Shown: positions 115 to 13,961 of the stretch, piece after piece
Layout of the letters: each line of letters begins with the position of its first letter
Position numbering within the stretch: the first letter of the stretch is position 1
NCBI GenBank assembly: GCA_030524545.1
Contig: JAUNGM010000009.1
Span: forward strand, 1 to 64,000
Reading direction: 5' to 3'
Origin: Eubacteriales bacterium
Lineage (GTDB): Bacteria; Bacillota; Clostridia; Lachnospirales; Lachnospiraceae
DNA: 64,000 nucleotides
Position numbers and translations under genes: made by a program
Notes under the pieces: model-generated
Seen by the model: the letters and a program-made list of their open reading frames with translations, nothing else
The model's database searches: none
What the model was told of the DNA's origin: nothing

Positions 115-1866
115 TCAGGTCAATTTTTTATATTCAATGAGGAAGCTTACGGAAGTACCAATTCCTTTCCGGCTCTCAATCTGCAATTTTGCATATTCTC
201 CGTAAAGAAGCCGAAGTCTGTTATTGACGTTGACAAGTCCGATATGTTCTTTCTGGGATAGATTTCCGTTTAATATGGACTGTAGATACATAAGGGTATT
301 ATGATCCATTCCATGTCCATTGTCAGAGACGCAGATATTCACATGATCGTTTTCGGTTGTAATGGAAACGGAAACAGAGCTTGGCCGGTTTTCTGTCAGG
401 CCTCCATGAAAGATACTGTTTTCTACAATGGGATACAGAATTAAATGGGGAATTCCGCATGACAGAAGACCAGGTTCTATATTCCAAACAATAGGTGCTA
501 CGTTTTCATAGCTGTATTGGAGTATGGAAACATAATTATTTGTATAGGCCATCTCATTTTCAACGGTAGTAAAAGTGTCCGGCATGGTTTTCAGGGTATG
601 CTGAAGCAGAGAAATAAAGACTCTGGTCAGATCAATAATAGTAGATGATTTCTGCTTCCGGGCCAGACAGATAATGCAGTTCAATGTATTATAGATAAAA
701 TGCGGATTGATCTGATACATCAACATCTGCAGGGTCATCTCGAACTCTTTTTTATCCCGGTAGAGCAGTTCATTGGTATAAGTATTAATGTCCTGAATCA
801 TATGGTTGAATACCTGGGCCAATTCTTCAATTTCATCCTTGCTATGGATTTCAACATATACATTTCTTTCCCCTTCAGAGACACGCTTCATGGCATGGAT
901 CAGGCTGTTTAAGGGTTTTGTGAGCTGGTTCGTGGTAATGTATACGGCAAGTATGGACAGCAGGGAGCAAAGGATCATAATAATAAATAATATCCGGATG
1001 ATGTTGAATACGCCCGAACGGGCAATCTGGTCAGGAGTAATACCTATGAGGGACCAGCCGGTATTTCCCGGATCAGCCTCAAAAATATAGGAATCTCTTG
1101 TTCGATGCAGCGTGCCGTTATACTGAAAGGCGGCATCATGATAAAGAATATCATTTCGGGAAATCGTACTGCCTGCAGGGTATAAGGGCTGGCTTTGTTC
1201 ATTATATAAAAAAAGGGAACAGGTATCACCAAATTCCTGCAGCGGCCTGATCAATTCTTTGTATTTTATAAAGATGACCAGTTTTCCCAGATAGGTATCC
1301 GGTACAGAGCTACTGTTGATATTGCAGATATAGGCAACCACATCAAGTTTTTCCTGGTCAAGGTTCATGGATATCTGATTAGGAACCGTAAAACCGCTGG
1401 AAACATCCTGAGACAAATATGGTTTATAGAGTTCCGATTTTAAAATATTCCCATATCTGGAAACAGTTTCCAGAGGAGCGCCGTTTGGATCCAGGAGCAA
1501 TATATTCCAGATCAGATTATCATGCAGTACGACGAACTGATCCAGATAATCTTCAGCATCCATAACCAGCCGGTAGTAGGCGTAAGTATTGTGGGGATGT
1601 GAGGTTGTATAAACATTTTGAATTGTGGGCTGAAAAGAAATGTCTTTGGAATACGTGGAAATTTCATCCAGATAATAGGATATCTGGCTGGCACTGGTTT
1701 TTACTGCAGTTTGTGTGTCTCTTCTGAAGATATCACTTAGAAGAGGTTCCAGATAAATAATAATCGATGCTACACAAATAACCACTGTAATAATCACCGT
1801 AGCTACTGTGGTAGATAAAAATTTCATATGTATAGTATTTTTTTTCGTGAGTTTTTTTAAGCCCAT
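115..1866 (-). CDS. YesM-type sensor histidine kinase
   Basis: Membrane sensor kinase of the YesM/LytS-like group that phosphorylates the adjacent YesN-type regulator. From the chosen start there is a first membrane segment (about residues 16-39), an extracytoplasmic sensor region of about 240 residues, a second membrane segment (about 289-312), a HAMP linker, the His_kinase domain with the phospho-acceptor His near residue 389 in QINPHFIYNTLN, and a C-terminal ATPase domain with N-box ENSIFHGG and G-box DNGHGMD. The start at 1866 sits about 12 nt after AAAGGA; an upstream ATG at 1878 directly abuts that site and looks unusable. The gene lies 26 nt downstream of the regulator gene, so the two form one operon. 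Its divergent neighbours are sugar ABC transporter genes, so the signal is probably a sugar or the binding protein (inference). Confidence 0.9.
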   Translation of the reverse strand: MGLKKLTKKNTIHMKFLSTTVATVIITVVICVASIIIYLEPLLSDIFRRDTQTAVKTSASQISYYLDEISTYSKDISFQPTIQNVYTTSHPHNTYAYYRLVMDAEDYLDQFVVLHDNLIWNILLLDPNGAPLETVSRYGNILKSELYKPYLSQDVSSGFTVPNQISMNLDQEKLDVVAYICNINSSSVPDTYLGKLVIFIKYKELIRPLQEFGDTCSLFLYNEQSQPLYPAGSTISRNDILYHDAAFQYNGTLHRTRDSYIFEADPGNTGWSLIGITPDQIARSGVFNIIRILFIIMILCSLLSILAVYITTNQLTKPLNSLIHAMKRVSEGERNVYVEIHSKDEIEELAQVFNHMIQDINTYTNELLYRDKKEFEMTLQMLMYQINPHFIYNTLNCIICLARKQKSSTIIDLTRVFISLLQHTLKTMPDTFTTVENEMAYTNNYVSILQYSYENVAPIVWNIEPGLLSCGIPHLILYPIVENSIFHGGLTENRPSSVSVSITTENDHVNICVSDNGHGMDHNTLMYLQSILNGNLSQKEHIGLVNVNNRLRLLYGEYAKLQIESRKGIGTSVSFLIEYKKLT

Positions 1867-1892
1867 ATCTGTATGCATTCCTTTCGTTTTTT

Positions 1893-3359
1893 CTAGCAGT
1901 AGTCACTTGGTTTTTTTCCGGTCTCTTTTTTAAAGCTGTTGCTGAAATACTGGACAGTCTGATAGCCTACCATCTCGCTGACTTCATAAATCTTGTATTT
2001 CCCGCTTTTTAGTAATTCTTTAGAAACGGAAATGCGGTATTTGGTGATATAGGTCATGAGGTTGATCCCGACTTCCTTTTTAAATAATTGGCTGACATAA
2101 AGCGGGCTGATTCCCAGCTCCTGAGAAAGCGTCTGCAGTGTAATATCTTCTGCATAATGCTCTTTTATATACTGGATGGCATCTACAATTTTTTTGCTGT
2201 ATTTTGGAATAAGAGTTTCCTGGATAGTATCCAAAATACGGCAGAGGGAGACGGATACAAAAGACACACGCAGTCCGGCAGCGTCCTTTGACAGGGAAGT
2301 CAATTCATAAATCAGGTTGTTAGGCAGCTCGGGATCCTTCATGTGAATGACCGTATTGGTAATGGAAATTGTCGCATTCGCGTAAAAATCAAGATCTTTC
2401 ATTTTGGGAACCGTCTCTTCGTAAAGTTTACGGATGACGGCGGAGGCTGATGAAAACTGTTGTTTTTCTATGAAGGAGATGATTTTTTTCAGCTGGTTTT
2501 CAGCAAGACTTTTTAAAGCCGGAAGAGAGGCACCGGGGATATTGGCATCAAGGATACAGTTTCCGGAAAAAAAGACCTTCAGGGAAAGAAGCTGCCGGGC
2601 TTTTAAATAGGAGTCTCTAAGTGAAGAAGGCGTTTGGACGGGCAGTCCGATAGAGATACTAAAGAGAGAAGAAAATGAGAGCGCAAATTGTTCTAAAAAG
2701 AGCCGTGCGAGTTCTTTTGTGATCATTTCCCTTTTTTCAGGTATTATCTGAAACAGAATCAAATAAAGATGCGTAGAAAGGCAATAATACTCATACGGGT
2801 ATTGCTTTTCAATGTCGGGAAAATGCAGACAGACTTCTTCACTATTATTCTCAATTTCCACTAAAAAAAGGCCGGATAGACCGTTCCATGAAAGATTGAC
2901 ATCAGAGGCCGCAGCAGATGCAGGCGTGGATAAATATTTGCGGATTTTATCCGCAGATGTAAGCTGATGAACCTTCCGGCGGTAAATCAGCGTATCCTTG
3001 ATTTTTTGAAGTTCACCAAGAAGTGACTTTTCATCCAATTCATGTTTTAACAGGTAAGAAGTAATACCAAGTGAGATTGCCTGTTTGGCATAGTCAAATT
3101 CTTCATAAGCAGTCAGAAGAATGAACTGCGTCTCCGGGGCCAGAGATAGGATTTTCTGAATCATTTCAAGACCTCCCATAACCGGCATTCTGATATCAGT
3201 CAGTACAATATCCGGGCGTGTTTCCTGAAAGAGCAAAAGCCCCTGCCTGCCATTACGTGCTTCGCCTACAAGAGTGAAACCATGGGCGTTCCAATCAATC
3301 ATTTCCTGAATATCTTTACGAATTAAATCAATATCTTCCACTATTAATACTCTGCACAT
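1893..3359 (-). CDS. YesN-type response regulator (REC + AraC HTH)
   Basis: Response regulator of 488 residues. The N-terminal receiver domain (about 1-120) has the acidic pocket VEDID and the phospho-acceptor Asp55 in LTDIRMP. A middle region of about 260 residues has no named motif. The C-terminal AraC/XylS double helix-turn-helix (about 390-488) includes LSQELGISPLYVSQLFKK and ends KKPSDYC. The ATG at 3359 was chosen because AAGGAG lies 8 nt upstream; a longer frame opens at 3404 without such a site. It is co-transcribed with the kinase and divergent from the ABC operon, which it probably activates. Such pairs usually control carbohydrate transport genes in Firmicutes (established for the family; the target here is inferred). 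Confidence 0.9.
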   Translation of the reverse strand: MCRVLIVEDIDLIRKDIQEMIDWNAHGFTLVGEARNGRQGLLLFQETRPDIVLTDIRMPVMGGLEMIQKILSLAPETQFILLTAYEEFDYAKQAISLGITSYLLKHELDEKSLLGELQKIKDTLIYRRKVHQLTSADKIRKYLSTPASAAASDVNLSWNGLSGLFLVEIENNSEEVCLHFPDIEKQYPYEYYCLSTHLYLILFQIIPEKREMITKELARLFLEQFALSFSSLFSISIGLPVQTPSSLRDSYLKARQLLSLKVFFSGNCILDANIPGASLPALKSLAENQLKKIISFIEKQQFSSASAVIRKLYEETVPKMKDLDFYANATISITNTVIHMKDPELPNNLIYELTSLSKDAAGLRVSFVSVSLCRILDTIQETLIPKYSKKIVDAIQYIKEHYAEDITLQTLSQELGISPLYVSQLFKKEVGINLMTYITKYRISVSKELLKSGKYKIYEVSEMVGYQTVQYFSNSFKKETGKKPSDYC

Positions 3360-3563
3360 AGGCATTGCTCCTTCCAATGTCTTATCTGAAAAAATATTTG
3401 ACATACTGCTATTTGGTACAGTGAATATTGAATAAAGTCTGATAATAAAAGTATATCACAGAAATAAAAAATCATAATTACAAAATATATGCTTTTTTTA
3501 TAAAAATTATACATCATTTTTATTTGATATAAGAATATTATAAAAAATCCATATTTTGTTATG

Positions 3564-3647: not shown

Positions 3648-4937
3648 ATGAAAGGAAGAAAATTAATTGTTTATATGATGGCTGCGGCCATGCTGATGAG
3701 CAGTACAACGGCAATGAATGTAAATGCAGAGAGCACGGACGGTGACAAAACTCCTATTGAGATCTGGACATGGGATATCGCTACCTGCGGAGAAATCAAT
3801 GCAATTTTCGAAGAAAAATTTCCGCAGTATACGGTTGAAATGGTTCCTGTAGAACAGTCGCAGATTACGCAGAAGCTGCAGACAACACTGGCATCAGGAG
3901 GGCAGGTGCCTGATATCTGCCTGTTGGAATACACTCACAGAGGACAGCTTTTCCAGCTTGATATCTGGGAGGATATCTCAGCGGAACCCTATAATTTTGA
4001 TACAGGCCAGGTACTGGACTGGCTGGTTCCAAATGAAACCGATGATTTCGGGGCATATGTAGGCCCGGAATATGTATCGATCGGCGCATTGGCCTACAAA
4101 CGTGACATGACATTAGAGTATTTCGGAACGGATGACCCGGAAGAACTGCAGAAAATGTTTCCGGATTGGGATTCCTTTATAAAGGCCGGCGAAGAGGTAC
4201 AGGAGAAGTCGGACGGCAAGGTGTTTATGCTTCCGAGCATAGGAAGTGCGGGTGCTATTTTAAAAGGACAGTCCCAGGAAGCTTATTTTGATGATAACCA
4301 GATTACGTTCAATAATTCCATTAAACCAATTCTGGAACGTCTGATCGAAATGAAGCAGAAGGGAGTTGTAGATCAGATTGATTATGGATCTCCGGAAGAG
4401 GCGGCCTCCTGCGGAAAGAATGACCATATTTTCTTTGAATGTCCGGCCTGGGCGCTTTCACAGCTGATTAAACCCAATGATCCTGAAGGATCCGGAAGAT
4501 GGGGACTGATGCTTCCGCCGGGCGGCGGTTATGCAGGAACATCTGCAAGTATGGGAATTCCGAAAGGTGCATTAAATAAAGAAGGAGCAGCAGAGTATAT
4601 TAAGTTCTTCCAGGGAACCATGGAAGGCGGAGAACTGATCCGTGATTATAAGAGCTCCCTGATTCCGTATAAACCGGCATATGAGGATCCGGCCTTCTAC
4701 AGCCAGACAGATCCGTTCTTTGGAGATCAGGATGTATGGAGCGTATTTGCAGGTGTGGCAAATAGTATCAAGGGAGTCCGTCCGCTGAATAACTACGATG
4801 AAGATTTTGAAGACTCCTATACTCTTGCGGTTAAGACCATCAATGCTTCAGATGGCGATATTACAGCAGATGAACTGGTGGATACGATGGTAGATGAGCT
4901 GATCAATAAGCATCCGGATTTAATTCCTGAGACATAA
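3648..4937 (+). CDS. Sugar ABC transporter substrate-binding protein (family 1)
   Basis: Extracellular solute-binding protein of 429 residues, SBP_bac_1 type, expected to capture an oligosaccharide or other sugar for the two following permeases. A signal peptide (about residues 1-27) ends at a likely VNA-ES cleavage site. The mature part shows family features such as the N-terminal IEIWTWD strand and the LASGGQVPDICLLE segment. There is no lipobox cysteine, which is unusual for a Gram-positive binding protein; it may be released, or held by the permease. AAAGGAGGG lies 9 nt before the ATG. The order binding protein, permease, permease is typical; the ATPase is absent, as is common where a shared MsmK-type ATPase is encoded elsewhere. 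Confidence 0.9.
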   Translation: MKGRKLIVYMMAAAMLMSSTTAMNVNAESTDGDKTPIEIWTWDIATCGEINAIFEEKFPQYTVEMVPVEQSQITQKLQTTLASGGQVPDICLLEYTHRGQLFQLDIWEDISAEPYNFDTGQVLDWLVPNETDDFGAYVGPEYVSIGALAYKRDMTLEYFGTDDPEELQKMFPDWDSFIKAGEEVQEKSDGKVFMLPSIGSAGAILKGQSQEAYFDDNQITFNNSIKPILERLIEMKQKGVVDQIDYGSPEEAASCGKNDHIFFECPAWALSQLIKPNDPEGSGRWGLMLPPGGGYAGTSASMGIPKGALNKEGAAEYIKFFQGTMEGGELIRDYKSSLIPYKPAYEDPAFYSQTDPFFGDQDVWSVFAGVANSIKGVRPLNNYDEDFEDSYTLAVKTINASDGDITADELVDTMVDELINKHPDLIPET

Positions 4938-4948
4938 GGAGGAACACT

Positions 4949-5830
4949 ATGAGGCGTAAATCCGTACCGTACCTTATGATACTGCCGTATTTTCTGGCAT
5001 TTCTGGCATTTAATATTTTTCCGGTGGTATTTTCCTTTTTTATCAGCTTTACGAACTGGAATGGGATTTCCGCCACAAAAGAATTTGTTGGAATAGCAAA
5101 TTATATCCGCGCATTGACCAAGGATTCTTTTTTCTTCCTGTCTTTAAAAAATACGATTTTACTGACGATTCTGATCATTCCGGGGCAGATTTTGATGGGA
5201 CTGCTTATGGCCTGTCTTCTGAAGGATTTTTTCAGAAAGACCAGGGGCGCATTTCAGCTGATCAATTTTCTGCCCTATCTGACAACGACCGTAGCGCTTG
5301 CAATTATTTTTCAGTTGATGTTTGACTGGAAGAATGGAATCGTGAACGGACTTTTAAGCCAGATGGGAATAGAATCGATCTACTGGCTTGGAAAAGCCGG
5401 GCCGACAAGAATCGTTGTAACTCTGATGGAAATATGGAGAAATTATGGCTATGCCATGATCATGTTTATGGCAGGGCTTTCTACTATTTCGGATGATCTG
5501 TATGACGCTGCAAAAATCGACGGAGCCAATTGGTTCCAGCAATTTTTCCGGATTACGGTTCCCATGCTCCGTCCGATTTTTGCCTTTACGGTGACCACAG
5601 GAATGATCGGTGTTCTGAATCTGTTTGACGGGCCGCAGCTATTGTTTTCGGGAACGAATCAGCCTATGGGAGGGCCGGGGCGGTCTGTATTTACCATTAT
5701 GATTCGATTTTATGAGGCAAGCTTTTTGAATTTTGAATTTGGTTATGGTTCAGCTATTGCGTATTTATTTTTCATCTTTGTCTCTATCGTATCGGCATTG
5801 CTGGTAAAGGCATTTGGTGAAAGGGAATGA
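4949..5830 (+). CDS. Sugar ABC transporter permease (MalF/UgpA type)
   Basis: Inner-membrane permease of 293 residues with about six hydrophobic segments. The cytoplasmic coupling loop that contacts the ATPase is visible as YDAAKIDGANWFQQFFRITV (about residue 190), matching the EAA-G consensus of binding-protein-dependent permeases. AAGGAGG precedes the ATG. It starts 11 nt after the binding-protein gene, so the two are co-transcribed. It should form a heterodimer with the MalG-type subunit that follows after an unusual repeat-filled gap. Confidence 0.92.
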   Translation: MRRKSVPYLMILPYFLAFLAFNIFPVVFSFFISFTNWNGISATKEFVGIANYIRALTKDSFFFLSLKNTILLTILIIPGQILMGLLMACLLKDFFRKTRGAFQLINFLPYLTTTVALAIIFQLMFDWKNGIVNGLLSQMGIESIYWLGKAGPTRIVVTLMEIWRNYGYAMIMFMAGLSTISDDLYDAAKIDGANWFQQFFRITVPMLRPIFAFTVTTGMIGVLNLFDGPQLLFSGTNQPMGGPGRSVFTIMIRFYEASFLNFEFGYGSAIAYLFFIFVSIVSALLVKAFGERE

Positions 5831-5978: not shown

Positions 5979-6024
5979 ATGACGAATCAGAGTAATGAAC
6001 GTGAGAAGAAGGCGGGTGATAAAT

Positions 6025-6855
6025 ATGCAGGCAGGAAAAAAGAGAAAACTGAAAACTATAGTCGTCGTGATAATTGTAATATTTATTTCTATTTTTGCGC
6101 TGCTTCCCTTTTTTGAGATGGTGATCATGGGAACCTACCAGACAGACCAGCTCTATACGGGAGTGAAATTGCTGCCGGGAAATTATCTGAAGCAGAACCT
6201 CCAAAATATTATGCAGCATGAATTTTTCCGGTTTTATGTAAATAGCTTTATTGTGGCGATTACGAATACGTTATGCGGAATGGCGATTTCTACCATGGCA
6301 GGCTATGCTTTTGCAAAATATCAGTTCAAAGGGCAGAATCTTCTTTTTTTGATTGTGATTTCTGCTCTGGCGATTCCGCCCCAACTGGGGCTTGTAGGAT
6401 TTGTAATTGAAATGAGAAGTCTGGGATGGGCAAATTCCCTGCTGCCGCTTATTGTAAACGGAATTGCAAACCCCTTTGGCGTATTCTGGATGAGGCAGTA
6501 CATTACCAGTTCCGTTCCGAATGAGCTTCTGGAAAGCGGAAGGATTGATGGATGCGGGGAATTCCGGATCTTGACAAGGCTGGTTGTGCCGATTATCAAG
6601 CCGGCTCTGATTACCATATTTTTAATTTTCTTCTTGTGGTCCTGGAATGACTATATGGTACCTTTGGTGATCACCACAAATCAGAAGTATTATACCATCC
6701 CTATTTCCATTTCTTTGCTGAGTACGGAGTTCAAGAATGATGATGCGGCCAGGATCCTCTGTCTGACACTGTCAACCATTCCGATCCTTGGAATGTTCAG
6801 TATAGGCTCCAAATATCTGATTCAGGGACTGGTTGCCGGGAGCGTGAAAGGATAA
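6025..6855 (+). CDS. Sugar ABC transporter permease (MalG type)
   Basis: Second permease, 276 residues, a normal size for the MalG family. About six membrane segments are visible, with the coupling motif ESGRIDGCGEFRILTRLVVP near residue 180. The ATG at 6025 follows AGGCGGGTGAT at a good distance; a longer frame from 5995 has no ribosome site and adds only an Arg-rich tail. It is separated from the first permease by about 195 nt of hairpin repeats, yet belongs to the same operon by strand and function. The next gene, apbE, begins 11 nt after its stop, linking transport to flavoprotein maturation. Confidence 0.92.
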   Translation: MQAGKKRKLKTIVVVIIVIFISIFALLPFFEMVIMGTYQTDQLYTGVKLLPGNYLKQNLQNIMQHEFFRFYVNSFIVAITNTLCGMAISTMAGYAFAKYQFKGQNLLFLIVISALAIPPQLGLVGFVIEMRSLGWANSLLPLIVNGIANPFGVFWMRQYITSSVPNELLESGRIDGCGEFRILTRLVVPIIKPALITIFLIFFLWSWNDYMVPLVITTNQKYYTIPISISLLSTEFKNDDAARILCLTLSTIPILGMFSIGSKYLIQGLVAGSVKG

Positions 6856-6866
6856 AGGCAGTACAT

Positions 6867-7877
6867 ATGGGAGAACGATGCATAGGAAGAAGGATGTTCC
6901 TGTATAACACGGTGTGTGAGGTCATTCTTTTTGAGTATCCGGGAGATGGGAAATGGATTCTGGATCAGTGTGAAAAAATTTCTGTTTCTGTTCAGAATAT
7001 GCTGAATATTTTTGATGAAACATCAGAACTCTCTGTTTTAAACCGGGAATATGTACCTGAAAAATGGTTTTCGGTTTCTGAGGAAATGTTTCAGTTTCTG
7101 CAGAAGCTTATGGGGTTTTCAGCTCTGAGTGAAGGTGCCTATGATCCTACTGTGGGAGCGCTGGTAAGGCTGTGGAATTTCCGGGCAGAACATCCGGTGC
7201 TTCCAAGTGAACAGGATATTTTGAGAGTGAAGAAAAATACCGGATACAAAAACATCAGGCTGGATAAGGAGAGGAAAGCAGTCAGCATAGCTGTTCCGGG
7301 GATGGTGCTGGATGCAGGCGGAGCAGGAAAGGGTTATGCGGTGGGTCTGGCAGCGGAATGGCTGAAGCTCTGCGGCGTAACTTCAGCCAGTATTAATTAC
7401 GGAGGGAATCTTTATTTGTTAGGGGAATTCCGGGCAGAAAACGGTGAGAAGAGAAGCTGGCGGGTAGGAGTGCAGAAGCCATGGGCCGAAAGAGGACAAA
7501 GTATAGGAACGCTATTTCTGAAAGATCAGGGTGTTGCTACATCAGCAGGATATGACCGGTATTTTGAACTGGACGGAAAACGATATCAGCATATCATCCA
7601 TCCGTTCAGCGGATGTCCGGTAGAGTCGGAGATTCTGAGTGTCAGCATTGTATCAGAAAGTCCTTTGATTACGGATCTTATGTCAACGGCTTTCTTTGTG
7701 GCTGGTATTTCCGATGGAGAAAAAATTGCAAAGCGGCTTCGGAAACAAGGAATTCAGGTGGAATATGTGGTGATCCTGCAGGACAAAATACATATTTCCG
7801 ATGGTATAAAAGAAAAATTCCTGCCATATGACAATTCGGCATGGAACAGTTCGGTTTTACCACAATCATTGTTGTAA
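6867..7877 (+). CDS. apbE: FAD:protein FMN transferase (ApbE family), cytosolic
   Basis: Enzyme of 336 residues expected to move FMN from FAD to a Thr or Ser side chain of a partner protein, needing Mg2+. Family motifs in order: YDPTVGALVRLWNF (about 92-105), the FAD/metal motif DAGGAGKGYAVG (about 150-161), TSAGYDRYF (about 228) and HIIHPFSGCPV (about 244). No signal peptide or lipobox is visible, unlike the lipoprotein ApbE of extracellular electron transfer, so it should act in the cytoplasm. The start is supported by AAAGG 8 nt upstream. The very next gene resembles an FMN-binding domain protein, its most likely substrate. Confidence 0.9.
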   Translation: MGERCIGRRMFLYNTVCEVILFEYPGDGKWILDQCEKISVSVQNMLNIFDETSELSVLNREYVPEKWFSVSEEMFQFLQKLMGFSALSEGAYDPTVGALVRLWNFRAEHPVLPSEQDILRVKKNTGYKNIRLDKERKAVSIAVPGMVLDAGGAGKGYAVGLAAEWLKLCGVTSASINYGGNLYLLGEFRAENGEKRSWRVGVQKPWAERGQSIGTLFLKDQGVATSAGYDRYFELDGKRYQHIIHPFSGCPVESEILSVSIVSESPLITDLMSTAFFVAGISDGEKIAKRLRKQGIQVEYVVILQDKIHISDGIKEKFLPYDNSAWNSSVLPQSLL

Positions 7878-7957
7878 AGAAAAATTCGAATAGCAAATAT
7901 ACAGAAAGTTCTGTGTAACTATTAACTATAAACTTATTATACGAGGGAGATTGGAAA

Positions 7958-8890
7958 ATGAGAAACATCGTAGAATGGAACCAGAGAGAAGAAGTAGACT
8001 GGCTTAAGTATACCGTTCAGCCGCCGCTGGGTATCATTACAGGTGACTATTACAAGGCAGAGAAAGAGTTCGGCGGCAGCGCGGAGGTGGCAGGACATAA
8101 AGGAAGGCTGGAAGTGGTATGCAGGGAAGGCAGGATCGTATTTGCGGAATTCAATGAGATTGCCATGGAAGCATATTATAATCAATACTTTTCCGGAATA
8201 GACAAAAAGCGCTCGGACTACGGCATCTGGCAGTCATCAAAACCAAGACAGGCAAAGGTGGGAGCAGTTCTGGCAGATGGTATCCAATTTGTAGAGGCGC
8301 AGATTATGGAACGCCAGTCATTGGAGGGAGATTTTGAACTTCTGACAGGGGCTTCCGGGAGTATGAAAAATATGCTTCCTATGGCAGCAGAGCTTGCCGA
8401 GAAAATAAAGGCTCCATCTGCAAAGAAATATTACGGAATTGCAGAGGATTTCGGTTATGGAATTACAGGCTGGCTGCAGATCCTTGTGGAGGAAGGAAAA
8501 ATCATTTCCTGTCATTACGATGAAGTCTTTGCAGACCATCAAAAAGATATTCGTTTTCCGGAATTAAAAAGATATTATAAACAGTCGAAATATTGTTCTC
8601 CCTGTTATCAGGATCCGTTCCCGAGAGGCTGGGACAGACATGTATGGAATATTAGTTTCCGCACTCTGATGGATCTGCTGGAGAAGCGGGTCATGGAAAA
8701 GCAGGATTTGTTCGATCTTGCAGGACTCCCATATATGGATGGGGAGAACCAGGGCGAAATGTGGGATACGGACAAGCCTTTTGAAAATCCCATTACGAAC
8801 TCTGTTCAGGTGCGTTATCCGTCTTATGATAATTATCTGCGTCTGGCAAAGAAACTGGTAAAAGAAATGCCGGAGCATTTTGGCAGATAA
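7958..8890 (+). CDS. FMN-binding-like protein, duplicated domain, probable ApbE substrate
   Basis: Protein of 310 residues that I do not recognise as a named enzyme. It appears to contain two related halves, each with a short beta-rich unit of the form G-x-L-x-V-x-x-x-x-G-x-I followed by an acidic helix (about residues 40-75 and 160-200). The first half has TGAS at residues 130-133, resembling the flavinylation motif S/T-G-A-T/S of FMN_bind domains, with Ser133 as the possible FMN acceptor. The second half has lost it. There is no signal peptide or membrane segment. GGGAGA lies upstream of the ATG. Its position between apbE and a PyrK/PyrD-like pair suggests a soluble covalent-FMN electron carrier or reductase. 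Assignment to FMN_bind is inference. Confidence 0.6.
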   Translation: MRNIVEWNQREEVDWLKYTVQPPLGIITGDYYKAEKEFGGSAEVAGHKGRLEVVCREGRIVFAEFNEIAMEAYYNQYFSGIDKKRSDYGIWQSSKPRQAKVGAVLADGIQFVEAQIMERQSLEGDFELLTGASGSMKNMLPMAAELAEKIKAPSAKKYYGIAEDFGYGITGWLQILVEEGKIISCHYDEVFADHQKDIRFPELKRYYKQSKYCSPCYQDPFPRGWDRHVWNISFRTLMDLLEKRVMEKQDLFDLAGLPYMDGENQGEMWDTDKPFENPITNSVQVRYPSYDNYLRLAKKLVKEMPEHFGR

Positions 8891-8937
8891 ACGAATCGTT
8901 TGAAAAAAGAAATCTGGAAGGAAATCAGGTGGTAAAT

Positions 8938-9720
8938 ATGGGAAAAATAAATGTGAAAGATTCCTGTATACTTTCTAAGTGTGAAGAAATCGGATTGGAT
9001 GGAAAGAAATGGAAACAGTTGGAAATTGCCTGGGATGACGAATCGTTTGAACCGGGACAGTTTCTTATGGCTGCCGGAAAGAAGATGGCAGTAAACTGGC
9101 CGAAGCCTTTTTTACTGCAGGAAAAAACGGAAAGAGGATTTCATATTCTGATTCAGGAGGAGAATCCCTGTTTTGACTGGGATGAGGGAGATCCGCTGAC
9201 CGTTTGGGGAATCTGCGGAAAAGAGATTGCAGAAGGCGTGGAGAAACGGGACAAGACCTTTGCTGCAGTGGCAGATCCCGCCGGAATGCTTCTGCTTTTG
9301 CCTTTCCTGCGGCGTTACGGAGAAATGTGCACGGGAATTTACATAGCAGGTGATAGGAATAAGGAGAACGAATATAAAACATGGATTTCTGGTGCTCTGG
9401 GCAAGCATCTGGAGGAAAGATGCCGATGCATTGAGAATTGTGAAACATTTGGTGAGGCCGCAAAGGCGGATTATTATGTAGCCGCATTGCCGTTGGAGAA
9501 AATCGGACAACTGAAAAAGGGATTACCGCAATGGATGGAAGAAAAGCTCTGGATCTTTACAGGGGTAAAGGTGGGCTGCGGAATTGGTGCATGCCGGGGC
9601 TGTTATATTCATGTGGAAGGAGAAAAACATGGCATTCCCGTATGCCAGGAAGGACCTTTCTTACCGATTGGGAAAATCCGATATAAACAGGATCAGAATT
9701 TCCTGATGCACTTTGTATAA
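8938..9720 (+). CDS. PyrK-like FAD/2Fe-2S electron-transfer subunit
   Basis: Protein of 260 residues resembling the electron-transfer subunit of class 1B dihydroorotate dehydrogenase, which passes electrons from NADH through FAD and a 2Fe-2S cluster to the FMN subunit. The C-terminal cluster motif is intact: Cys-x4-Cys-x2-Cys in GCGIGACRGC (about residues 212-221), a fourth Cys 13 residues on, then the typical EGPFLPIGKI. The N-terminal FAD region is diverged: KPFLLQ stands where RPxS-type sequence is usual. AGGTGG sits 5 nt before the ATG at 8938. The gene overlaps the leader of the next gene, the PyrD-like partner. The odd neighbourhood suggests an electron acceptor or substrate other than orotate. 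Confidence 0.78.
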   Translation: MGKINVKDSCILSKCEEIGLDGKKWKQLEIAWDDESFEPGQFLMAAGKKMAVNWPKPFLLQEKTERGFHILIQEENPCFDWDEGDPLTVWGICGKEIAEGVEKRDKTFAAVADPAGMLLLLPFLRRYGEMCTGIYIAGDRNKENEYKTWISGALGKHLEERCRCIENCETFGEAAKADYYVAALPLEKIGQLKKGLPQWMEEKLWIFTGVKVGCGIGACRGCYIHVEGEKHGIPVCQEGPFLPIGKIRYKQDQNFLMHFV

Positions 9721-9763
9721 AACTGCGGAAAGCGAAAGAAAGGAATTGGAGGTGGATGCACAG

Positions 9764-10690
9764 GTGAATACACAAGTAAGCTGTGAAATCAGAAAAAAGA
9801 AAATAATCCTGAAAAATCCTATAATGTCAGCCCCCGGAGGATTTGGCAATATCATAGAATATAAGGATTTTGTGGATCTGAGCAAGGTTGGTGCGCTAAT
9901 ACCGAATTCTATGCTCAAAGAAGACGGCGGCCCAAATGGTATCAATAAGTTTATGACAACGCCATATGGATACCTGAGCAGTTTTGGACCGAATAATATA
10001 GGACTCGCTACCTTTATTCAGGAGGTTCTCCCAAAGATTCCGGAGGACGCAGCGCCGGTGATCGTAGATATAAAAGCAAAAAGTATGGAGGAAATGGGGG
10101 AATCCGTTGAACTGGCCGCAAAGACAGAAAAAATCATGGCTGTGGAAGTGAATCTTAATTGCCCGTATGCCAGTCCGGAGCCTCTTTATTGGACGGATCC
10201 CAAAAAGCTGGAAGAATTGATGGGGATTGTGCGGCAGGCAGCAGGTGAGAAGCTTGTAATTGCCAAGGCTCCGGGAGGTATCTATCCCATGAAAGAAATG
10301 GCAGAGATCCTGGAAAAAGCGGGAACCGACATGTTTGTACCTTTCAACTGCATTGATGGATGCGCAGTGAATGTACGGACAAGGACTGTTCAGGGTGGAG
10401 GATTCTTTGGACCCGGAATCAAACCTGTAGCTTTGAGCCGATGCAAAGAGGCTGCTTCCGTATTTCATATCCCGGTAATCGGGGCGGGCGGAATTACATG
10501 TGCGGAAGATATCCTGGAATATCTGATGGTTGGGGCTTTTGCGGTGCAGGTGGGCTCTGCTAATTTGACAAGGCCTGATTTCATGCAGAATCTGCCGGAT
10601 GAACTGGAGAAACTTCAGGAAGAACTGGGAATAGAGTCACTGGATGACATCAGAGGGACAGCGAAGATGATACAAATGAATGTATTTTAA
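9764..10690 (+). CDS. Dihydroorotate dehydrogenase-like FMN enzyme (class 1B type)
   Basis: TIM-barrel flavoenzyme of 308 residues, the usual PyrD length. Early NPIMSAPGGFGN, the active-site loop EVNLNCPYASPEP with the Cys that serves as base in class 1 enzymes, FNCIDGCAVN, and the C-terminal FMN phosphate motifs GAGGI and GAFAVQVGS are visible. In orotate-using enzymes the loop reads CPN; here it is CPY, so one orotate-contacting Asn seems lost. A GTG start at 9764 is preceded by GGAGGTGG; the longer frame begins at a TTG inside the previous gene. No other pyrimidine gene is nearby. It may reduce or oxidise a different ring compound, using the PyrK-like partner as electron source. Confidence 0.75.
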   Translation: MNTQVSCEIRKKKIILKNPIMSAPGGFGNIIEYKDFVDLSKVGALIPNSMLKEDGGPNGINKFMTTPYGYLSSFGPNNIGLATFIQEVLPKIPEDAAPVIVDIKAKSMEEMGESVELAAKTEKIMAVEVNLNCPYASPEPLYWTDPKKLEELMGIVRQAAGEKLVIAKAPGGIYPMKEMAEILEKAGTDMFVPFNCIDGCAVNVRTRTVQGGGFFGPGIKPVALSRCKEAASVFHIPVIGAGGITCAEDILEYLMVGAFAVQVGSANLTRPDFMQNLPDELEKLQEELGIESLDDIRGTAKMIQMNVF

Positions 10691-10696
10691 AAAATC

Positions 10697-10732
10697 GGGA
10701 ACAGCGCGGGAAAATAGGCGCTGTTCCCTTTT
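10697..10732 (+). terminator. Rho-independent terminator after the flavin module
   Basis: Perfect 11-bp GC-rich arms GGGAACAGCGC and GCGCTGTTCCC around a 10-nt loop, followed by TTTT. It closes the operon that begins with the sugar-binding protein. Confidence 0.9.
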
Positions 10733-10781
10733 CCGATGTGTGTCGGACATACAGAAATTTGGAAAGTGGAAGGAAGGATAG

Positions 10782-10810
10782 TTGACTTTTCTGCCACTTT
10801 TTTTTATAGT
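10782..10810 (+). promoter_or_regulatory. Sigma-A promoter of the lipid kinase gene
   Basis: TTGACT and TATAGT separated by exactly 17 bp, 80 bp before the TTG start. It probably also drives the glutamine synthetase gene, which follows without a terminator. Confidence 0.75.
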
Positions 10811-10889
10811 ATTAAAGATAAGGAAAAGGGCAGGAACCTATGGCTTCCTGCCATAAGATGAGAATTATGCCTGAAAGGAGGCAGGGTCT

Positions 10890-11822
10890 TTGGAGAAAAA
10901 AATGCTGTTTGTATTTAATCCGAAAGCCGGAAAAGGGAAGATTAAAACAAATCTTCTGGATATTGTGGATGTATTTAACAAAAGTGACTATGAAGTGATC
11001 ATTCATGCGACACAGAAGCCAAAGGATGCTTATGAAAAGGCCAAGGCGTATGCTGATAAAGTAGACCTTATTGTCTGCAGCGGAGGCGACGGCACACTGG
11101 ATGAGGTTGTTACAGGGATCATGGAAAGCGGAAGTTCCGTACCTGTGGGATATATTCCGGCGGGAAGCACCAATGATTTTGCCAACAGCCTGTTTATGCC
11201 TAAGGATATGGTGGAGGCTGCATCCATGATTTTGGAAGAAGAGCTGTATCATTGTGATATCGGCAGATTCGGAAATCAGACATTTACCTATATCGCGGCA
11301 TTCGGACTTTTTACAGATGTATCTTACGAAACAGACCAGGATCTGAAGAATATTCTGGGGCATGTTGCATATCTTCTGGAAGGAATGAAGCGTTTGTTCG
11401 AGATTAAGTCCTATCACATGAAAGTAACATGCGAGGACATTTTAGGGGAAGCCGATACAACGGTGGTGGAGGATGATTTTATTTTTGGAATGGTGACAAA
11501 TTCCCGTTCCGTAGGCGGATTTAAAAACCTGACAGGTAAGAATGTGGATATGAATGACGGCCTGTTTGAGGTTACCCTGATCACCAGGCCGAAGAATCCG
11601 CTTGAGCTTCAGGAAATCCTCGCTGCAATTCTCAAAGAAGAGGATAATTCCGATCTGATCTATTCTTTTAAAACAAAGGAGATCGAATTTGAATCCGAGG
11701 AAGAGGTACCATGGACCCTGGACGGAGAGTTCGGCGGCACACATCGGATAATTGATATCGAAAATAAACACGCCGCTTTGAACCTTTATGTGAAAAGCAC
11801 CAAAAAAACGAAAGAATCATAG
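10890..11822 (+). CDS. Diacylglycerol/lipid kinase (DagK/YegS family)
   Basis: Soluble lipid kinase of 310 residues that phosphorylates diacylglycerol or a related lipid with ATP, feeding phospholipid recycling. Motifs: FNPKAGKG near the N terminus, the catalytic loop GGDGT at residues 65-69, and IPAGSTNDFANSL (about 90-102). The C-terminal half is beta-rich with ending motif PWTLDGEFGG, as in this family. The start is TTG at 10890, chosen because AAAGGAGG lies 8 nt upstream; an inner ATG at 10902 is the alternative. The gene is followed after 24 nt by glutamine synthetase. Confidence 0.88.
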   Translation: MEKKMLFVFNPKAGKGKIKTNLLDIVDVFNKSDYEVIIHATQKPKDAYEKAKAYADKVDLIVCSGGDGTLDEVVTGIMESGSSVPVGYIPAGSTNDFANSLFMPKDMVEAASMILEEELYHCDIGRFGNQTFTYIAAFGLFTDVSYETDQDLKNILGHVAYLLEGMKRLFEIKSYHMKVTCEDILGEADTTVVEDDFIFGMVTNSRSVGGFKNLTGKNVDMNDGLFEVTLITRPKNPLELQEILAAILKEEDNSDLIYSFKTKEIEFESEEEVPWTLDGEFGGTHRIIDIENKHAALNLYVKSTKKTKES

Positions 11823-11846
11823 TGTTTAGGAAAAAGGAGAGAAAGA

Positions 11847-13961
11847 ATGGGAGAATATATCAATGTAGTGGAAACTTTCGGATGCGATGTTTTTAATGAC
11901 TCAGTCATGCAGGCTCGCCTCCCTAAGAAAGTTTACAAAGAATTGAAAAAGACCATTGAAGAAGGAAAAGAGCTTTCCATGGAAATTGCCGATGTGGTCG
12001 CTCATGAAATGAAGGAGTGGGCGATTGAAAAGGGAGCAACGCACTACAGCCACTGGTTCCAGCCGCTGACAGGAGTAACGGCGGAAAAGCATGACGCTTT
12101 TATCACAGCGCCTATGGACAACGGCAAGGTGCTCATGAGCTTTTCGGGCAAGGAGCTGATCAAGGGAGAGCCTGACGCATCCTCTTTCCCGTCCGGCGGA
12201 CTCCGTGCCACTTTTGAGGCACGCGGTTATACTACCTGGGATTGTACCTCACCGGCCTTTGTGCGCCATGATGCTGCCGGCGCAACCCTTTGCATTCCTA
12301 CTGCATTCTGTTCTTATACAGGTGAAGCGCTGGATCAGAAAACACCCCTTCTCCGTTCTATGGAGGCGGTGAACACTCAGGCGCTCAGGCTGATCCGTCT
12401 TTTTGGCAATCATACATCGAAAAAAGTAACCCCGTCTGTTGGCGCGGAGCAGGAGTATTTCCTGATTGATAAAGAAAAATGGCTGCAGCGTAAGGATCTG
12501 ATCTATACCGGAAGGACTCTTTTCGGCGCTATGCCTCCGAAGGGGCAGGAGATGGATGACCATTATCTCGGCACCATCCGTCAGAGAGTCTCCGCATACA
12601 TGAAAGAAGTGAATGAGGAGTGCTGGAAGCTGGGTGTTACTGCCAAAACGCAGCACAATGAGGTTGCACCGGCACAGCATGAGCTGGCTCCGATCTATGC
12701 ACCGGTTAACATTGCTGCAGACCACAATCAGCTTATGATGCGTATCCTGAAGAAGGTAGCAAGCCGCCATGGAATGCGCTGCCTGCTTCATGAAAAGCCT
12801 TTTGCAGGTGTGAATGGTTCCGGTAAGCACAACAACTGGTCCCTGACTACTGATGACGGAATCAACCTCTTAGATCCGGGGAAAACCCCTCATGAAAATG
12901 TTCAGTTTCTGATGGTCCTGACATGTATTCTTAAGGCAGTAGATACCCATGCGGATCTTTTGCGTGAATCTGCCGCGGATGTTGGGAATGACCATCGTCT
13001 TGGTGGTCACGAGGCTCCTCCGGCGGTTATTTCCATTTTTCTCGGAGAACAGCTTGAGGATGTGCTGGAACAGCTGATCAGTACCGGTACAGCCACCCAC
13101 AGCATCAAGGGTAAGAAGCTGGATACCGGTGTGAAGACCCTTCCGGATTTTATGAAGGATGCCACAGACCGTAACAGAACATCCCCCTTTGCATTTACAG
13201 GAAATAAATTTGAGTTCCGTATGGTTGGCTCCAGAGACTCTATTTCCGCATGCAATGTTGTACTGAATACGATTGCCGCAGAAGCATTCAAGGAAGCCTG
13301 CGACCGTCTGGAAGCTGCACCGGATTTTGATCTGGCTGTCCATGATCTGATCAAGGAATATGCTACGGAGCATCAGAGAATCGTCTTTAATGGCAACGGC
13401 TATGCTCCGGAATGGGAAAAAGAGGCGAAACGCCGCGGACTTCCGAATCTGCCGTCCATGGTGGATGCCATTCCCGCTTTGACGACGGAGAAGGCTGTAA
13501 GTCTTTTTGAATCCTTCGGCGTATTCACAAAGGCAGAGCTGGAATCCCGCGCGGAAATCCAGTATGAGATTTATGCGAAAGCAATTAATATAGAAGCGAA
13601 GACCATGATCGATATTGCCACCAAGCAGATTATTCCGGCTGTGATCAAGTATACCACTGTGCTGGCGGATTCTATTAATTCCGTAAAGGCAGTCGGACCG
13701 ATCGACGTGAGTGTACAGATGGATCTTCTGAAAAAGACGTCCGTTCTGCTCAAGAATACCAACAGTGCTATGAGTAAGCTGAAGAAGATTGTGGCACAGG
13801 TTCCAAATGTTCCGGAAGGAAGAGAACGTGCTGTTTTCTGCAGAGAAAAAGTGGTAAAAGCCATGGAAGCACTCCGTGAACCGGTTGATGAGCTGGAAAT
13901 GCTTGTAGATAAGGAAATGTGGCCGATGCCTTCTTACGGAGATTTGATTTTTGAAGTTTAA
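11847..13961 (+). CDS. glnN: Glutamine synthetase type III
   Basis: Large cytoplasmic glutamine synthetase of 704 residues, a length typical of type III (GSIII). It makes glutamine from glutamate, ammonia and ATP. Visible family features include the N-terminal [12 protein letters not shown] region, [28 protein letters not shown], the ATP-site segment [14 protein letters not shown] and [31 protein letters not shown] precedes the ATG. It probably shares the promoter upstream of the lipid kinase. A perfect 20-bp hairpin follows the stop codon. Confidence 0.97.

Follow-up and report, generated by a model that had tools for sequence, protein, structure and literature searches.

Why should a flavin transferase of the ApbE family be encoded directly beside relatives of both subunits of class 1B dihydroorotate dehydrogenase (DHODB), downstream of a sugar-type importer? 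This question is raised by the window, a stretch of 64,000 nucleotides (nt) from a Eubacteriales bacterium of the Lachnospiraceae (NCBI GenBank assembly GCA_030524545.1, contig JAUNGM010000009.1, positions 1 to 64,000 of the forward strand). An initial annotation had described four consecutive genes there, encoding an ApbE, a protein resembling those that bind flavin mononucleotide (FMN; gene 2 in what follows), a PyrK-like protein and a PyrD-like protein, placed downstream of sugar ATP-binding cassette (ABC) transporter genes and divergent from a YesM/YesN pair, and we found this arrangement as described (YesM and YesN being named by eye). We took the genes of the locus as open frames on the + strand from a list of open reading frames (ORFs), and applied the Pfam and NCBIfam cut-offs. 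The four genes, called the module here, have the following features:

6867..7877, + strand: cytosolic ApbE, flavin adenine dinucleotide (FAD):protein FMN transferase (PF02424, 230 bits, cut-off 25.6)
7958..8890, + strand: gene 2, signal-less PplA/cAD1-like double-repeat protein and predicted ApbE substrate (sequence kinship, internal repeat)
8345..8356, + strand: TGAS codons (residues 130-133) of gene 2 with the predicted flavinylation site Ser133 (motif comparison)
8929..9720, + strand: putative PyrK-like [2Fe-2S] adaptor without complete motifs for FAD and nicotinamide adenine dinucleotide (NAD) (PF10418, 32 bits)
9577..9645, + strand: C217, C222, C225 and C239 of the [2Fe-2S] site of the PyrK-like protein (alignment with canonical PyrK)
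9713..10690, + strand: PyrD-like FMN barrel (PF01180, 111 bits)
9905..9907, + strand: Asn65 codon of the PyrD-like gene, aligned with LysD48 of L. lactis (phmmer alignment to 1ep1_A)
10160..10162, + strand: Cys150 codon of the PyrD-like gene, catalytic cysteine position (alignment with canonical PyrD)

We consider it an evenly balanced proposition that the module encodes a soluble oxidoreductase built from a rewired DHODB, which would combine covalent FMN, a [2Fe-2S] cluster and barrel FMN and would act on a substrate other than dihydroorotate. The gene order, the co-occurrence, the fusion and the motif losses and retentions on which this proposal draws are read directly from the sequences.

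Co-occurrence of the four genes

We counted 11 loci with gene 2 (the window, L010, L011, L012, L031-L035, L075 and L077), 8 of which hold all four genes. Gene order was identical at 6 of these 8; in the remaining two (L034 and L035) gene 2 is fused to the PyrK-like gene, with the PyrD-like gene after the fused gene and apbE 7.0 kb from it on the opposite strand. The window order is present in an Oscillospiraceae metagenome-assembled genome (L010) and in Candidatus Hungatella pullicola (L012, by its length the same contig as G498), and recurs in L031, L032 and L033, where a further copy of gene 2 precedes apbE. The L011 contig stops within gene 2, so the module content cannot be judged there. 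It should be noted that the 8 complete loci represent fewer independent cases, since L034 and L035, and likewise L031-L033, are close relatives. Loci in which the genes were not conserved together had been named as grounds for abandoning the module; the loci do not bear this out, the conserved association being strong within clostridial loci, although in other families gene 2 is also found without the PyrKD-like pair and the pair without gene 2.

Amino acid identity between the window and L010 was 64% for gene 2 and 54, 49 and 28% for the other proteins (28% being the PyrK-like protein), and that between the window and L012 was 80% for gene 2 and 72, 51 and 43% for the others. ABC importer genes flank 7 of the 8 complete loci, the exception being L010, whose contig is only 10.3 kb long.

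When whole genomes were drawn from the order, family, class and phylum (draws which overlap one another), gene 2 was found in 1 of 392 order genomes, the source genome itself, and had matches in 7 of 397 family genomes; the match in one of these, at E 0.0099 and containing stops, was left uncounted, leaving 6. Matches in the class numbered 5 in 391 genomes, four of them weak (E > 0.001; the two of these scanned with Pfam, L036 and L037, have FMN_bind proteins), and those in the phylum 3 in 398. Using gene 2 against the contigs of 84,980 species genomes, a scan which reaches close relatives only, 3 of 25 candidate stretches (L010, L011 and L012) were confirmed; among viral contigs 208 stretches fit the search pattern and no relative was among them. 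Such rarity in the order and family would suit a decaying or chance cluster with no joint function. We consider this very unlikely, as the frames are intact and the linkage recurs at 42-72% identity of the PyrD-like protein to that of the window, in varying surroundings. The PyrD-like profile, run over the 397 family genomes (in most of which no more than 5 candidates were scored), hit 30 places at E <= 1e-60. Of these, 7 scored 528-574 bits and the other 23 did not exceed 215 bits, and all 7 top places (six genomes, G680 twice) adjoin gene-2 places.

The extra gene in L031 (8767-9615), L032 (8675-9667) and L033 (8541-9416) is a paralogue of gene 2 that is shorter and has a GAS site of its own, which suggests a pair of flavinylated proteins at these loci.

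Divergence from dihydroorotate dehydrogenase

The initial annotation would have been overturned had the source genome (G000; 4.34 Mb, 76 contigs) lacked any other pyrK and pyrD. Both are present: pyrF, pyrK, pyrD and pyrE are adjacent frames in that order on contig C55 (pyrF and pyrE named by eye), with a canonical PyrK ([2Fe-2S] domain, 66 bits) preceding a PyrD of 298 bits, the only DHO_dh match above cut-off elsewhere in the genome (two weak matches fell below it). The four module genes are distinct from this pyrimidine set, as had been proposed. A third match to the DHODB [2Fe-2S] domain (31.6 bits) was found on contig C76 (L014 5485-6336), near a frame of 694 amino acids resembling a molybdopterin oxidoreductase by eye.

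For the PyrD-like protein, Pfam gave DHO_dh at 111 bits, besides small barrel-type extras (His_biosynth and Dus) barely above their cut-offs. The NCBIfam DHODB models gave 191 of 269 and 159 of 270 bits, short of a class 1B assignment, and class 1B barrels were its nearest relatives in the libraries searched. We compared 8 module PyrD-like proteins with 24 canonical PyrD, and 8 PyrK-like proteins with 21 canonical PyrK; the canonical sets came from the 23 lower-scoring family loci, 20 of which gave a PyrK, and from the genome's own pair, whose PyrD supplies the numbering. Cys129, Asn126 and Lys164 were kept in 8/8 PyrD-like proteins and Asn191 in 6/8, the position of Cys129 (Cys150 in the window) being that of the catalytic cysteine of PyrD. 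This cysteine, in NxxCP, is present in all 8 module proteins and none of 3 plasmid relatives, and all 24 canonical proteins have Cys at the position. Lys45, Asn69, Asn131 and Thr192 of canonical PyrD were replaced in 8/8. A phmmer alignment to 1ep1_A pairs Lys45 with LysD48 of L. lactis, and this position is Asn in all 8 PyrD-like proteins vs Lys in all 24 canonical ones; a title in the reference list of PMC8097209 states that LysD48 is needed for rapid flavin reduction.

In a tree of 36 PyrD rows, the 8 module and 3 plasmid PyrD-like proteins stood apart from the 25 others with support of 100/100. The plasmid rows nest inside the module rows with lower support (91/81 and 86/85), and the tree program gave a long-branch warning.

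A surplus dihydroorotate dehydrogenase that serves pyrimidine synthesis in different conditions would account for the nearness of the PyrD-like protein to class 1B barrels. It is the least credible of the explanations considered: the genome has its pyrimidine set on C55, the four residues above are replaced throughout, and no pyrimidine gene was found among those neighbours scanned with Pfam (part of all neighbours). We rejected the module as a pyrimidine paralogue on the first two of these grounds.

The PyrK-like protein has likewise lost motifs. Only the DHODB [2Fe-2S] tail (PF10418) exceeded its Pfam cut-off, at 32 bits, and the best NCBIfam score was 27.7 of 224 bits, far under cut-off. 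The four [2Fe-2S] cysteines are present in 8/8 PyrK-like and 21/21 canonical proteins. Among the motifs which we take to bind FAD, the Arg of RPxS was found in 0/8 vs 21/21, its Ser in 0/8 vs 20/21, and the Gly-Thr of the GT loop in 0/8 vs 21/21. Among those which we take to bind the nucleotide, the first Gly of GGGxG was found in 0/8 vs 20/21 and the second in 0/8 vs 21/21 (the third and last in 1/8 and 3/8 PyrK-like proteins), and the Cys and Gly of CGPxPM in 0/8 vs 21/21. No PyrK-like protein had a complete RPxS, GT loop, GGGxG or CGPxPM. The initial annotation had called this protein an FAD/2Fe-2S subunit, of which the FAD part is unsupported, and had read the module as NAD(P)H-driven, which is likewise unsupported, neither nucleotide motif being complete in any of the 8. 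A predicted model of the protein (predicted local distance difference test, pLDDT, 70.6) had L. lactis PyrK (1ep1_B) as its best Foldseek match (E 5.4e-08, template modelling score 0.37); as the top match is PyrK while the motifs are gone, the fold appears loosely kept and the cofactor motifs not.

Compared with DHODB (PyrK-PyrD, class 1B; L. lactis 1EP1-1EP3), the module shares the barrel family, the catalytic cysteine, the [2Fe-2S] cysteines and the PyrK-PyrD gene order. It differs in having no complete FAD or NAD motif in the PyrK-like protein, in having lost the LysD48 equivalent and other orotate-site residues from the PyrD-like protein, and in joining this pair with ApbE and gene 2. The evidence is strong both for the divergence of the PyrK-like and PyrD-like proteins from DHODB and for their retention of the cluster site and the catalytic Cys.

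Gene 2 and its predicted flavin site

The window ApbE scores 230 bits against PF02424 and starts at the domain itself, with no hydrophobic N-terminus. The only other ApbE of the genome has a lipobox-like start by eye, which makes that of the window the signal-less one. The single FMN_bind match in the genome was an RnfG-like protein among Rnf-like frames (Rnf named by eye). No membrane-like segment was found in the four module proteins (highest 19-residue Kyte-Doolittle mean 0.98-1.38, no signal-peptide program having been run), compared with 2.5 and 3.3 for the two permeases upstream. This agrees with the soluble module, and with the cytosolic ApbE beside an FMN-binding-like protein, of the initial annotation; gene 2 does carry a flavinylation motif. 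A signal-less ApbE acting on a soluble cytosolic flavoprotein has a parallel in Klebsiella pneumoniae, although the target there, according to passages of PMC12052999, is a soluble fumarate reductase, whereas target and partners here would be PplA-like and PyrKD-like.

Gene 2 of the window had no Pfam match up to E 1, no NCBIfam match and no PHROGs match, and 0 of the 11 gene-2 members scanned with Pfam matched FMN_bind (PF04205). The earlier label of FMN-binding-like was right but general, as the closest named relatives are PplA/cAD1-type lipoproteins, which are normally outside the cell. Of the 13 members of alignment A6, one matched the PplA model NF041941 (28.6 of 325 bits, E 7.7e-07, residues 12-245), namely L077 (G1459), which has a lipobox by eye; gene 2 of the window did not match. 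This lipoprotein form (10028-10981) follows a histidine kinase and a response regulator, and ties the family to PplA. The single match in the plasmid collection was an Enterococcus faecalis lipoprotein, with 32% identity across 234 aligned columns. This protein (L109 5662-6732) has KGQS at the TGAS position and SGAT in the linker, a possible new place of its flavin site.

Gene 2 is internally repetitive, with an N- vs C-half profile score of 39.6 (best of 100 column shuffles 18.6), giving the two homologous repeats of the PplA/cAD1 layout. Flavinylation of PplA at two sites is described in passages of PMC9973259, and both two sites and two homologous domains are reported for cAD1 in PMC7074142. 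The PplA and cAD1-precursor (Cad) lipoproteins and gene 2 share, besides the PplA match of L077, the two-repeat layout and an ApbE-type site; they differ in that gene 2 of the window has no signal sequence or hydrophobic segment, one flavin site and PyrKD-like partners. In extracellular electron transfer loci, PplA is paired with membrane NADH dehydrogenase and quinone genes. We regard gene 2, with moderate confidence, as a signal-less relative of PplA-type flavinylated lipoproteins.

At the predicted flavin site, [ST]GAS was found in 11/16 and AGAS in 3/16 gene-2 family members, with TGAS in the window; composition alone would give [ST]GA[ST] 0.013 times per protein. The window motif agrees with the [S/T]-G-A-[S/T] core of ApbE substrates (passages of PMC8238504), published in the longer form D-x-x-[S/T]-G-A-[S/T] (passages of PMC12052999). 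Position -3 of the core is Glu in the window, L010, L011 and L012 and Asp in the other [STA]GAS members, and changing the Asp to Ala is reported in the latter source's passages to have only a minor effect. We regard the evidence for an ApbE site in gene 2 as strong, the flavinylation itself being predicted.

Descent of gene 2 from FMN_bind is likely, though weakly shown. Against the PDB up to E 10, the gene-2 profile gave 2 matches, 2KZX (E 0.013) and 3O6U (E 0.06; termed an FMN-bind protein in a passage of PMC11334425), both weak and both aligned at the GA[ST] site, which is the likeness to FMN_bind that stands beside the lack of any PF04205 match. The N-half scored 22.2 against FMN_bind profiles (<= 17.5 in 100 column shuffles, with a probability of only 8.9%) and the C-half 14.9 (<= 15.9 in shuffles, no signal), in a test using 23 of 26 domains, one of which (L093) was a wrong row. 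With L093 removed, 6/16 members scored higher than any of the 91 window decoys (maximum 0.6 bits); the top score, 8.5 bits, belonged to the lipoprotein relative L077, and the window gene gave -1.5 bits. A PDB match to a NEDD8 enzyme (E 0.0095) was taken as chance.

Proposed mechanism, substrate and alternatives

In the rewired enzyme that we propose, the dedicated ApbE would link FMN to Ser133 of the gene-2 protein through a phosphoester bond. Having given up both FAD and NAD(H), the PyrK-like protein would serve as a [2Fe-2S] adaptor, and electrons would pass through its cluster between the covalent FMN of gene 2 and the barrel FMN of the PyrD-like protein, in one direction or the other. With PyrK lacking FAD and NAD, and the FMN of gene 2 linked through the cluster, gene 2 would take over the FAD/NAD job of an ordinary PyrK. 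The three proteins would form a soluble cytosolic complex, whose barrel may act on a compound other than dihydroorotate, most likely delivered by the importer or derived from its cargo and probably sugar-derived. Candidates for the final electron partner are NADH, by direct action, a ferredoxin or flavodoxin, and a second substrate.

Several observations weigh against this proposal. Gene 2 and the PyrKD-like pair are separable. In L075 (8166-12090) of G1442, the genes of a peptide-type ABC importer (named by eye) are followed by three copies of gene 2 in tandem, all signal-less, and by an ApbE that by eye is signal-less too, with no PyrK-like or PyrD-like frame in the stretch; the best PyrD scores across this genome were 187 and 70 bits, 187 lying within the canonical range. 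In G1459, L077 is a lone lipoprotein-form gene 2 with no PyrKD-like pair, and the best PyrD score was 166 bits. Conversely, 87 plasmid records matched the PyrD-like protein, and among the 10 matches listed, Sinorhizobium, Roseateles and Ensifer stood out (40.5-41.2% identity). In the Roseateles (L110 9743-12957) and Ensifer (L112 9632-12951) plasmids an AbgT transporter and a degenerate PyrK-like gene precede the PyrD-like gene, and neither gene 2 nor ApbE was seen in the comparison of frames, which covered the middle 12 kb; an intact PyrK-like frame was not seen in the Sinorhizobium plasmid. All three plasmid PyrD-like proteins have Phe for the catalytic Cys. The PyrK-like alignment is weak outside the cluster, as the low identity between the window and L010 indicates, and loss of known motifs would be no proof of FAD loss. 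At the flavin site, two of the three G1442 copies, which are the remaining 2/16 members, have HGAS and SAS, the Asp of the published motif is replaced by Glu in the window, and ApbE is said in passages of PMC12052999 to favour Thr over Ser. Structure prediction of gene 2 with AlphaFold, based on an alignment of 3 rows, reached a pLDDT of 32, and the model was set aside.

The separate occurrence of gene 2 bears on another explanation, in which the gene-2 protein is itself the enzyme, working at its covalent FMN, and the PyrD-like and PyrK-like proteins only supply or drain electrons. Gene 2 shows higher identity to the window than the other three genes do in both L010 and L012, it accompanies ApbE in triplicate beside an ABC importer in G1442, and L031-L033 each have two copies. 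However, the known role of PplA-type proteins is to carry electrons, not to catalyse reactions in a substrate pocket, and the PyrD-like protein retains the catalytic Cys and Lys164. We judge this explanation rather unlikely, and prefer the rewired enzyme with its barrel as the catalytic site.

Clues to the substrate of the rewired enzyme come from the genes around it, which in the window are:

115..1878, - strand: YesM-like sensor kinase (ORF, named by eye), divergent from the importer-module run
1893..3404, - strand: YesN-like response regulator (ORF, named by eye), divergent
3648..4937, + strand: solute-binding protein of a sugar-type ABC importer (SBP_bac_8, 52.8 bits)
4949..5830, + strand: ABC permease 1 (BPD_transp_1, 62 bits)
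5995..6855, + strand: ABC permease 2 (BPD_transp_1, 52 bits)
10697..10732, + strand: terminator-like hairpin followed by TTTT (11-bp perfect stem, loop 10; sequence and fold)

The intergenic gaps from the solute-binding protein through the PyrD-like gene are 11, 164, 11, 80, 38 and -8 nt, and the hairpin closes the unit 3' of the PyrD-like gene (it is absent from a hairpin scan restricted to loops of 3-8, its loop being 10). The PyrD-like protein probably starts at GTG 9764 (308 amino acids), judged from its relatives, and the PyrK-like protein may start at ATG 8938 instead of 8929. Frames BLAST-similar to the YesM-like and YesN-like proteins adjoin the module in L011, L012 and L031-L035, and the YesM-like kinase is the likely regulator of the locus. 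In L011 (2985-8639), YesN and YesM lie in one frame, permease 2 continues into gene 2 and apbE is missing, which we attribute to a deletion or an assembly error. Beyond the hairpin, outside the module, the window (10890-13961) encodes a DAGK-type lipid kinase (Pfam) and a glutamine-synthetase-like frame of 704 amino acids (by eye).

The window solute-binding protein had 2 PDB matches, one of them a family-1 solute-binding protein and the other a putative cellobiose-binding protein, and the binding proteins indicate the substrate only as sugar-type. The module of L012 is followed on the same strand by GDSL, FAD_oxidored, GH130, a protein of 1053 amino acids without a Pfam match and GH28; L010 has an enolase-superfamily gene and an NAD-epimerase gene on the opposite strand, and L011 has mannitol-dehydrogenase-type and FAA_hydrolase genes. 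The neighbours of the clostridial loci favour a plant-glycan-derived compound, whose identity they do not name. A link between the module and the transporter substrate, as first proposed, is plausible.

The neighbours of the plasmid pairs point rather to N-heterocycles, with a cytosine/purine-type permease in Roseateles (L110) and an Asp/Glu/hydantoin racemase and amidohydrolase in Ensifer (L112). If the module too acted on a nucleobase-like or other N-heterocyclic substrate, the sugar-type transporter would be a loose neighbour. This is improbable in our view, because the Phe of the plasmid barrels may mean that their substrate differs, and because ABC importer genes adjoin the module loci except L010 and GDSL, GH130 and GH28 trail that of L012.

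A further-reaching form of the rewired-enzyme proposal, which we advance tentatively and hold to be less probable than the proposal itself, is a new soluble enzyme class in which a PplA-type carrier that has lost its export signal, loaded with covalent FMN in the cytosol by a dedicated ApbE, replaces the FAD/NAD half of DHODB. Such an enzyme would reduce or oxidise a fragment of imported plant glycan, with PyrK making no direct use of NAD(H). One bold candidate for its reaction might be to reduce the double bond in a 4,5-unsaturated uronide, an idea prompted only by chemical likeness to orotate (a ring C=C beside a carboxylate and a ring heteroatom) and by the GH28 gene in the L012 contig. In the literature covered (titles, abstract starts, term counts and passages, outside subscription journals and bioRxiv preprints), ApbE or flavinylation was never joined with a PyrK/PyrD-like pair. 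If the rewired-enzyme proposal is right, the module illustrates how an enzyme with two flavins and one cluster can exchange its NAD module for a protein that bears covalent flavin, and the four genes would offer a testable system whose substrate may be discoverable from the transporter.

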